A stretch of DNA of 64,000 nucleotides, from NCBI GenBank assembly GCA_945862505.1, contig CAMAYJ010000005.1, positions 1 through 64,000 on the forward strand, in the 5' to 3' direction. This document shows, in pieces, positions 11,769 to 15,066 of the stretch. The first letter of the stretch is position 1. Each line of letters begins with the position of its first letter. The translations under genes were made by a program, and so were the position numbers. The DNA comes from Bifidobacterium breve (lineage in GTDB: Bacteria > Actinomycetota > Acidimicrobiia > Acidimicrobiales > Acidimicrobilacustridaceae). The notes under the pieces are model-generated. The model was not told the origin of the DNA, ran no database searches, and saw nothing but the letters and a program-made list of their open reading frames with translations.

Positions 11769-12503
11769 ATGGGTGCCATGTCTGAGGGAATCTTGCGACT
11801 CTTTGCGCCAGCCAAGCTGACGACCTCGCTGCGAGTCGTCGGTAGGCGCAATGACGGTTTCCATCTCATTGATGCCGACATGGTGTCACTCGATTTTGGT
11901 GATTGGCTTTTTGTGACCGAAGCAGAATCTCCGGTCGTTGAATTTGTCGATTCGGAAGGAAACGAGCTGCACCTTGGCCCCGACAATCTGGTGTCGCGGG
12001 CGCTTCGGTACGTCGGTAGCGACGTGAGTGTTCGGATCGAGAAAGTTATTGCCGCTGGCGCTGGGCTTGGCGGGGGTTCCGCCGATGCCGCCGCGATTCT
12101 CCATTGGGCTGGCCACAGTGATCCGGTTGCTGCGGCATCGCTTGGGGCCGACGTCGCATTCTGTGTTGTCGGCGGGCACGCACGAGTCCAAGGCATCGGT
12201 GAACTGATCGAACAATTGCCCTTTGAAGAGCGGGTCTTCACACTGCTCACTCCGCCGGTGATGTGTTCAACACCGGCGGTCTATCGCGCATGGGACGATT
12301 TGGGCGGACCATCGGGAGATAACGGCAATGATCTCGAGCCTGCAGCGCTAGTTGTCGCTCCTGAATTGGCCCGGTGGCGCGATGAGCTCGGCGATGCCGC
12401 TGGAGTCCGGCCTCGTCTCGCCGGTTCAGGCTCGACCTGGTTCGTTGAAGGTGACTATCCCGGCGAGGGCCGAGTCGTGGCGCACACGAGCCCAGCTCGC
12501 TAG
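11769..12503 (+). CDS. ispE: 4-(cytidine 5'-diphospho)-2-C-methyl-D-erythritol kinase
   Basis: LRLFAPAKLTTSLRVVGRRNDGFHLIDADMVSLDFGD...AAGAGLGGGSADAAAILHW; start may be 11778. Confidence 0.92.
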   Translation: MGAMSEGILRLFAPAKLTTSLRVVGRRNDGFHLIDADMVSLDFGDWLFVTEAESPVVEFVDSEGNELHLGPDNLVSRALRYVGSDVSVRIEKVIAAGAGLGGGSADAAAILHWAGHSDPVAAASLGADVAFCVVGGHARVQGIGELIEQLPFEERVFTLLTPPVMCSTPAVYRAWDDLGGPSGDNGNDLEPAALVVAPELARWRDELGDAAGVRPRLAGSGSTWFVEGDYPGEGRVVAHTSPAR

Positions 12504-12639: not shown

Positions 12640-12642
12640 AGC

Positions 12643-12744
12643 TCACTTACCTGCAGCTCGACGCTGGAAGCGAGTTCGCTTCAGCATCTTCTTGTGCTTC
12701 TTCTTTCGCATGCGCTTGCGGCGCTTCTTAATAAGAGATCCCAT
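12643..12744 (-). CDS. 33-aa ribosomal protein bS22 / AURKAIP1-COX24 domain protein
   Basis: MGSLIKKRRKRMRKKKHKKMLKRTRFQRRAAGK, the highly basic actinobacterial bS22 type; in frame inside the longer ORF 12643..13008. Confidence 0.88.
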   Translation of the reverse strand: MGSLIKKRRKRMRKKKHKKMLKRTRFQRRAAGK

Positions 12745-12839
12745 GGCGGGGCGACTGTAGCGGCCCGAGGCTCTCTTGTGCGAAACGAACTCCTTGCGGC
12801 CGCCGATCGGGGAGATCGTGACCGGTGGAAGCGGAAAAG

Positions 12840-12911
12840 CTCGGGGGCAGGGACTCGAACCCCGAATGACTGGACCAAAACCAGCCGTGTTGCCAATTAC
12901 ACCACCCCCGA
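12840..12911 (-). tRNA. tRNA-Gln (anticodon TTG)
   Basis: Reverse complement TCGGGGGTGGTGTAATTGGCAACACGGCTGGTTTTGGTCCAGTCATTCGGGGTTCGAGTCCCTGCCCCCGAG folds as a cloverleaf with 7-bp acceptor TCGGGGG/CCCCCGA and loop TTTTGGT. Confidence 0.95.
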
Positions 12912-12958: not shown

Positions 12959-14056
12959 ATGTCCCCGAGGCCGCTCTCTGCGATCGTGCTCGCCGCTGGC
13001 GAAGGCACTCGAATGCACTCTTCGCGTCCGAAACCCCTGCATTTATTGTGCGGAAGGGCGATGGTCCTCTATGTGCTCGATTCGCTCGCTGGATGCGAGG
13101 TTGGCCGGGCTGTTGTGGTCGTCGGTCACGGTGCCGAGCGTGTGACGAAGAAATTGCTCGACGAGGCTCCAAATGTCTCGCTTGAATTCGTGGAACAGGA
13201 AGTCCAACGCGGCACCGGTGACGCTGTTGGAGTTGCCCTAACGGCGTTCAGCCCTGAAGAACTCGATGACGTCGACGCCGACATCATCGTGCTCCCCGGC
13301 GATACGCCGCTCCTGCGTGCTGAAACCATCTCTGCGCTGCTTGCGACGCACCAGAGCACTGATGCTGCGTGCACGTTGCTCACCGCCCGAGTGACCGATC
13401 CCACTGGGTACGGACGCATCGTCCGTGGTCGAGATAACCGAGTCGATCGCGTCGTCGAACAATCTGATGCTTCAGAAGCGCAGTTGGCAATTACTGAGGT
13501 CAATACGTCGATTTATTGTTTTCGGGCCAGCGTCCTTGGTCCAGCATTGCGCCGAATCACCCCAGAGAACGCACAGGGTGAGTACTACCTCACCGATGTC
13601 ATCGAGGTGCTTGCTTCGGCGGGGTATCGCGTCTCCGCAGTTGTTGCCGAGGATGCTTTGGATACCACCGGAGTGAATGATCGTTTACAGCTGGCTGCGG
13701 CCGAAATGGAGCTGCGCCGCCGCACGAACGAGGCTTGGATGCGAAAGGGAGTCACGATGGTCGATCCCGGCCGCACTTATGTCGATACGACAGTCGAGCT
13801 CGCTGCTGATGTGACTTTGTTCCCTGACACGATCCTGCAGGGTTCGTGTGTGATCGGGGCCGGGACCGAACTCGGTCCAAACACCCGGTTGGTCGATTGC
13901 CGAGTTGGGGCTCGATCAGTCGTCGAAAATTCGGTTGGTCGGGGAGCCGAGATCGGCGACGATGTTCGCCTGGGTCCATTTGCAGTTCTCGAACCCGGAG
14001 CGATTGTTTCTGACGGCGCCCGGCCCGGACCGTTCTACACTTCACCAACAGAATGA
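12959..14056 (+). CDS. glmU: GlmU-type UDP-N-acetylglucosamine pyrophosphorylase, short form lacking the C-terminal acetyltransferase half
   Basis: IVLAAGEGTRMHSSRPKPLHLLCG, QRGTGDAVGVAL, VLPGDTPLL, GYGRIVR, GEYYLTDVIEVL, GVNDRLQLAAAEMELRRR; ends at VRLGPFAVLEPGAIVSDGARPGPFYTSPTE*. Confidence 0.88.
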   Translation: MSPRPLSAIVLAAGEGTRMHSSRPKPLHLLCGRAMVLYVLDSLAGCEVGRAVVVVGHGAERVTKKLLDEAPNVSLEFVEQEVQRGTGDAVGVALTAFSPEELDDVDADIIVLPGDTPLLRAETISALLATHQSTDAACTLLTARVTDPTGYGRIVRGRDNRVDRVVEQSDASEAQLAITEVNTSIYCFRASVLGPALRRITPENAQGEYYLTDVIEVLASAGYRVSAVVAEDALDTTGVNDRLQLAAAEMELRRRTNEAWMRKGVTMVDPGRTYVDTTVELAADVTLFPDTILQGSCVIGAGTELGPNTRLVDCRVGARSVVENSVGRGAEIGDDVRLGPFAVLEPGAIVSDGARPGPFYTSPTE

Positions 14057-14085: not shown

Positions 14086-15066
14086 ATGGAACTCGTCACC
14101 AAAAAGCGGCTGCATATTGTCTCAGGTCGGGCCAATCTCCCGCTTGCCGAAGAAATTGCTGAACGCCTCGGTGTCGAATTAGGCGACGCGAATCTTGCAG
14201 AATTCGCTAACGGTGAACTTCATACGCGTTTCGGCGAATCGGTGCGCGGTACTGACGTGTTCATTATCCAATCGCATGTTGGCTCCGGAAAGATGACCGT
14301 TAACGACGCGATCATGGAACAGCTCATCATGGTCGATGCCGCCAAGCGAGCTTCAGCGAAACGAATCACTGCTGTCGCTCCGTTCTATGGCTATGCGCGT
14401 CAGGACCGAAAATCCGAAGGTCGCGAACCGATTACCGCGAAGTTGATCGCCAATATGTTCAAGGCAGCCGGAGCAAAGCGCCTTATCTCTGTCGATCTGC
14501 ACTCCGGCCAGATCCAGGGTTTCTTCGATGGACCTGTCGACCACCTCACCGCAATGCCGGTACTGGTCGATTACATGGCTGGTCTCGGCGATGACCTTGT
14601 GATCGTTTCTCCCGATGCTGGTCGCGTGAAAGTTGCTGAGCGTTATGCCAATCAACTTCATGCCGATCTGGCAATCGTTCATAAGCGTCGCGTCAAGGGA
14701 CAGAAGAACACCGTCGAAGCCCGTGACGTTGTCGGTGAAGTCGATGGGCGTATCTGCGTTCTTATCGACGACATGATCGATACCGGCGGAACGATCGTTG
14801 CTGCAGCTGAACAACTCAAGGCTCGCGGTGCGACCGAGATCTACGCGGCGTGCACACACGGCGTATTCAGCGGTCCCGCTATTCAGCGTTTGAACGACTC
14901 GTGCATTTCAAAGGTCGTTATGACCAACACCCTTCCGCTTCCGCCTGAAAAGCAGTCGGACAAAATCGAAGTGCTTTCGGTTGCCGGCATCATCGCCGAT
15001 GCGATCGACGCGGTGTTCGAAGACACTTCCGTCAGCGAAATTTTCGACGGTCATAACCAGAGCTGA
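14086..15066 (+). CDS. prs: Ribose-phosphate pyrophosphokinase
   Basis: RLHIVSGRANLPLAEEIAERLG...FANGELHTRFGESVRGTDVFIIQS...FYGYARQDRK...VLIDDMIDTGGTI; an upstream ATG at 14053 is also possible. Confidence 0.95.
   Translation: MELVTKKRLHIVSGRANLPLAEEIAERLGVELGDANLAEFANGELHTRFGESVRGTDVFIIQSHVGSGKMTVNDAIMEQLIMVDAAKRASAKRITAVAPFYGYARQDRKSEGREPITAKLIANMFKAAGAKRLISVDLHSGQIQGFFDGPVDHLTAMPVLVDYMAGLGDDLVIVSPDAGRVKVAERYANQLHADLAIVHKRRVKGQKNTVEARDVVGEVDGRICVLIDDMIDTGGTIVAAAEQLKARGATEIYAACTHGVFSGPAIQRLNDSCISKVVMTNTLPLPPEKQSDKIEVLSVAGIIADAIDAVFEDTSVSEIFDGHNQS

Follow-up and report, generated by a model that had tools for sequence, protein, structure and literature searches.

A GlmU protein lacking the acetyltransferase active site in the order Acidimicrobiales

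Results

The stretch of DNA analysed here (64,000 nucleotides, hereafter the window) carries the gene order rsmA-ispE-tRNA-Gln-glmU-prs-rplY-pth, in which the names other than glmU and prs were read from the translations and which is the conventional actinobacterial cluster (Table 1). The stop codon of glmU is followed after 29 bases by the prs start at 14086. An alternative prs ATG at 14053 overlaps the glmU stop; the start at 14086 is probably the real one, and that at 14053 improbable, because MELVTKK is conserved from 14086 onwards in relatives. When the C-terminal halves of full-length GlmU relatives were used as queries, no match was obtained downstream of glmU in the window. The claim of the earlier note that no remnant of the missing half lies before prs thus holds with either start. 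Between ispE and tRNA-Gln, the minus strand contains a short and very basic open reading frame (~12640-12750, KKRRKRMRKKKHKKMLKRTRFQRRAAGK) that resembles a small ribosome-associated protein.

Table 1. Features of the glmU locus, in positions of the window
Feature	Position	Strand	Description	Basis or remark
glmU, truncated	12959..14056	+	Predicted N-acetylglucosamine-1-phosphate uridylyltransferase of 365 aa, acetyltransferase part missing	Sequence, profiles, alignment, model; ATG at 12959, TGA ending at 14056
Nucleotidyltransferase (uridylyltransferase) domain of glmU	12959..13720	+	Residues 1-~254	Catalytic residues intact
Retained N-terminal left-handed beta-helix coils of glmU	13754..14026	+	Residues ~266-356	AlphaFold2 model, weak Hexapep matches
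prs	14086..15066	+	Ribose-phosphate pyrophosphokinase	Immediately 3' of glmU; probable start
ispE	11769..12503	+	Upstream neighbour	Locus marker also in genomes without glmU
tRNA-Gln (TTG)	12839..12911	-		Between ispE and glmU

The 365-aa product matched best, among the NCBIfam models, that of bifunctional GlmU (NF010932). The match covered only model positions 5-355 of 488, and the scores fell below the curated cut-offs of both NF010932 (399.9 bits against 611) and TIGR01173 (349.8 against 366.85). The Pfam NTP_transferase match spanned residues 8-236, and matches in the PDB stopped at residue 348 of E. coli GlmU and at residue ~360 of the M. tuberculosis protein. In the alignment with E. coli K-12 GlmU, the window protein, whose last residues are GPFYTSPTE, stops where GNFVEMKKA begins, that is, at about E. 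coli residue 351 and just N-terminal of the acetyltransferase catalytic residues.

To compare individual residues, we used an alignment of 93 sequences that included 76 truncated proteins, the window's among them, and 15 full-length relatives. G14, R18, K25, Q76, G81, T82, D105 and N227 (E. coli numbering) were invariant in all 76 truncated proteins, so that the uridylyltransferase domain of the window protein retains the G-rich loop, K25, D105 and N227. In contrast, H363, Y366, N377, N386 and K392 fell into gaps in 74-76 of these 76 proteins, the few letters found there belonging to aligned tails. K351 was replaced or lost among them, and R333 was replaced in nearly all, the window protein having a glutamate (E345) at this position. 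R333, K351, H363, Y366, N377 and K392 were all kept in each of the 15 full-length relatives. Because R333 is gone even within the part that is retained, no acetyltransferase site is left in the window protein. Together with its orthology to the uridylyltransferase half and its position before prs, these results agree with the earlier reading of the gene as a monofunctional GlmU carrying the uridylyltransferase motifs.

An AlphaFold2 model built from an alignment of 34 proteins of the window's clade (mean pLDDT 88) consisted of a nucleotidyltransferase domain, a long helix and short beta-helix coils, the last of these being modelled with pLDDT 90-98 at residues ~266-356. GlmU crystal structures ranked first in a Foldseek search, with a TM score of 0.88 to M. 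tuberculosis GlmU, and among them the model fits the 331-residue E. coli construct (1fxj/1fwy). The earlier statement that the acetyltransferase half is absent was therefore correct for the catalytic portion and has to be amended for the helix, which is partly retained.

One position next to the sugar site was less constant. N169 (E. coli numbering) varied in 16 of the 76 truncated proteins, which may point to a change of substrate of the truncated GlmU. The short protein could then uridylylate GlcN-1-P to UDP-GlcN, with N-acetylation taking place afterwards. We consider this route very unlikely, since the window protein retains the equivalent asparagine (N182) together with the sugar-site residues G140, E154, Y197, T199 and N227, and we know of no UDP-GlcN N-acetyltransferase that would serve such a route.

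We then looked at the spread of the short form. Of 248 order genomes, 235 gave a match in a GlmU search, and in most cases the matching protein had the same extent. In 30 of these GlmUs, read through to the stop codon, the end lies at the same motif or a few residues from it; in most of these 30, the prs start (MELV or similar) lies directly behind the glmU stop. The terminal motif GPFY is conserved among the truncated proteins. In the class-wide search, the best order genome reached an E value of 1.5e-127, against ~1e-142 to 1e-186 for the intact copies of sister lineages, whose matches span model positions 5-465. The 80 closest named relatives come from Microthrixaceae, Ilumatobacteraceae, Iamiaceae and other Acidimicrobiales; five have a full-length GlmU, and the other 75 have proteins of 356-390 aa. 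Among these relatives are the isolate Aquihabitans sp. G128, which has a complete genome and a truncated GlmU, and strain IMCC26207. Two relatives are closest to the window protein, and of these one, with 97% identity, carries the label Candidatus Microthrix sp. In two members of the window's own genus (L007 and L009), GlmU ends a few residues earlier, at ARLARS or ARLGAS, and without GPFY, as if the retained tail were still eroding there.

Because the assembly of the window genome is a 115-contig draft (estimated completeness 99.55%), an assembly error or a sequencing frameshift had to be considered. This explanation was rejected, since GPFY is conserved and the same end recurs across many genera whose genomes were assembled independently, as well as in an isolate with a complete genome. 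The other observation that could have spoken against a lineage trait, a full-length GlmU at the same locus in close relatives, was made only in sister lineages; within the window's own genus, family and order, every GlmU that was followed to its stop codon is truncated. The sister lineages of the same class encode a GlmU of 460-483 aa at the same glmU-prs locus and keep every catalytic residue. In these full-length relatives prs follows directly behind the longer gene, the acetyltransferase part filling the gap. In a tree of the shared part, 35 truncated proteins formed one clade (support 97/99) beside the full-length sister sequences, and the truncation mapped as one change, a result that held in 94% of the bootstrap trees. 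Since the truncated proteins form a single clade, the comparison of sequences indicates a single early loss of the domain: the truncation is old and inherited, and goes back to near the base of Acidimicrobiales.

In some lineages reduction has gone further. In one family of the same class (f67), the genera g212, g232, g239, g240 and g243 matched only to model position ~250, and the three proteins that were read (L351, L352 and L353) end after ~245 aa and contain the nucleotidyltransferase domain only; two of these genes are followed by prs. Judged from these sequences, this is a second and deeper loss in which the whole beta-helix is gone. In addition, several members of the order (in f7, f18, f20, f27, f35 and f36), otherwise near-complete genomes among them, gave no GlmU match in the class-wide search, and the ispE-prs interval contained no glmU where it was read (prs loci L239-L261). 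In these genomes both GlmU activities must therefore come from elsewhere. GlmS was kept in the glmU-less genomes that were checked (G034 and G186). Such genomes would fit a lineage that imports GlcNAc or muropeptides and can dispense with acetylation de novo, as has been proposed for other bacteria lacking GlmU (PMC7725333). This explanation is quite improbable, because GlmS and GlmM are retained in the window genome, GlmS also persists in glmU-less relatives, and isolates have the same truncation.

The amino-sugar pathway of the window genome was examined for an enzyme that could take over the acetylation. A canonical bacterial-type GlmM, scoring above its cut-off, is encoded on contig C15, and the GlmS gene adjoins it (L049:9632-13105). 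GlmU is present in one copy only. Neither a second GlmU nor a GlmU-like stand-alone acetyltransferase was found in this genome, and the UAP1-type pyrophosphorylase (PF01704) was absent from it and from 40 of the 41 genomes searched, which rejects a UAP1-type replacement. These searches bear out the view of the earlier note that another enzyme or route is needed. Because the genome is a draft, the gene of a replacement enzyme could lie in a gap, which the order-wide pattern makes unlikely.

The GlmS of this genome is itself unusual. It comprises 1157 aa instead of ~610, being longer by ~190 residues close to the N-terminus and by ~320 C-terminal residues to which no Pfam family matched, and it scores below the GlmS cut-off. 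The long form is widespread in the class regardless of the length of GlmU. As a carrier of the lost activity it was rejected, for the long form co-occurs with full-length GlmU (f71, f72, f75 and f79), and a truncated GlmU is found beside a short GlmS (f23 and f33).

Twelve GNAT genes were found in the window genome, none of them recognised as Gna1. One (G000:C10:42438-42920) has orthologues sharing at least ~47% identity in 84 of the 96 order genomes sampled, genomes of 1.4-1.7 Mb and glmU-less ones among them. In eukaryotes, Gna1 and AGM1 carry out acetylation-first steps. By this precedent, and given the conservation of the gene, a GNAT could acetylate GlcN-6-P, after which GlmM would make GlcNAc-1-P and the short GlmU would make UDP-GlcNAc. 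Such a eukaryote-like order of steps is possible but doubtful. The protein is of the phosphinothricin/arsinothricin acetyltransferase type, the GlmM of the genome is a canonical bacterial one, and the same GNAT occurs in sister lineages with a full-length, intact GlmU and was not found in g157 (G318, G366 and G470) and a few other order members; the GlmU of G318, which was read, is truncated. From this distribution the gene appears to predate the truncation, and its presence beside intact GlmU, together with the lack of a match in some truncated lineages, makes it a weak candidate at best. Relaxed acetyltransferase sites in those sister lineages that carry the GNAT would have hinted at redundancy; this idea was dismissed, the catalytic residues being intact there. 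Three loci (L061, L063 and L064, on C7 and C6) encode GNAT-like paralogues that have diverged from one another, have an extended N-terminal part and gave weak PF00583 matches only; the two that were compared with GNAT regions of other genomes, L061 and L064, had no match there.

The hexapeptide proteins of the window genome comprise DapD, a gamma carbonic anhydrase, a WbbJ/WcaF-like transferase and two short-helix nucleotidyltransferases. A hexapeptide (LbH) transferase could act in trans as the GlcN-1-P acetyltransferase. The 238-aa WbbJ/WcaF-like protein (G000:C24:4688-5404) matched the missing GlmU half better than any other locus of this genome that was checked (E 7e-6), and it has a relative at 41% in G076, a genome without any glmU. 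The match, however, consists of generic hexapeptide repeats and leaves the GlmU catalytic segment uncovered, and NCBIfam places the protein nearest sugar O-acetyltransferases, so that this role is unlikely. No GlmU-C-like catalytic segment was seen on another protein among the loci checked; at those of the window genome, the C-terminal halves of full-length relatives matched generic hexapeptide repeats only. A relocated GlmU acetyltransferase domain was likewise rejected, as none was found in the window genome and the hexapeptide matches read in other genomes resemble other sugar acetyltransferase types. All in all, none of the GNATs, the hexapeptide transferase and the 1157-aa GlmS is convincing as the acetylating enzyme.

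Discussion

The explanation that best accounts for these results, to which we assign a probability of about 0.85, is that the gene at 12959-14056 encodes a monofunctional GlcNAc-1-phosphate uridylyltransferase, that one ancestral deletion near the base of Acidimicrobiales removed the acetyltransferase part of GlmU, and that acetylation is performed by a separate, non-GlmU enzyme. The intact active-site residues suggest that uridylyltransferase activity is preserved, and the trimer is probably still held by the beta-helix coils that remain. GlmS and GlmM would still supply glucosamine-1-phosphate, and for that reason we infer that another enzyme adds the acetyl group, either on GlcN-1-P or earlier on GlcN-6-P. 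This enzyme is probably non-orthologous to GlmU.

Compared with the bifunctional GlmU of E. coli and M. tuberculosis (TIGR01173/NF010932), the window gene is orthologous, has the uridylyltransferase residues and the matching fold, and precedes prs as in the sister lineages, but its product lacks everything past E. coli residue ~351 and with it the acetyltransferase active site. Its extent is nearly that of the 331-residue E. coli construct that was solved with UDP-GlcNAc (PDB 1fwy and 1fxj); that construct was made in the laboratory, whereas the short form described here is natural and conserved across an order. The ST0452 protein of Sulfolobus tokodaii (PDB 2ggo and 5z09) is likewise a sugar-1-phosphate nucleotidyltransferase with a beta-helix, but it is described as dual-function and shares ~20% identity in the fold match. 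The eukaryotic GNA1-AGM1-UAP1 route also places acetylation and uridylylation on separate proteins; in the window genome, in contrast, the UAP1 family is absent, the uridylyltransferase is derived from GlmU, and no Gna1 was recognised among the GNATs. Precedents for an absent acetyltransferase half or an absent GlmU are Chlorobaculum limnaeum, whose GlmU has no C-terminal domain, and Chlamydia, which has no GlmU (PMC7725333), although these are single mentions from other phyla. Truncated or missing GlmU has thus been mentioned before, and it is the replacement enzyme that would be new. In our literature searches, no description of a truncated GlmU in Acidimicrobiales was found.

The analysis extends the earlier note in that the truncation is an order-wide trait, glmU has disappeared altogether from several members, and GlmU was shortened a second time in another family of the class. 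We would give even odds that Acidimicrobiales use an undescribed, non-orthologous N-acetyltransferase that allowed first the acetyltransferase half of GlmU and then, in several lineages, the entire protein to be lost; the order may thus have another complete route to UDP-GlcNAc. The two independent losses in the class provide a basis for searching for the replacement enzyme, and annotating the 365-aa genes as bifunctional GlmU conceals the gap in the pathway. Acetylation of GlcN-1-P by GlmU is generally regarded as an essential step in bacteria that make peptidoglycan, and it serves as a drug target. That a large order with cultured, free-living members lost the acetyltransferase site once and kept the rest of the protein points to an undescribed enzyme for an essential step.
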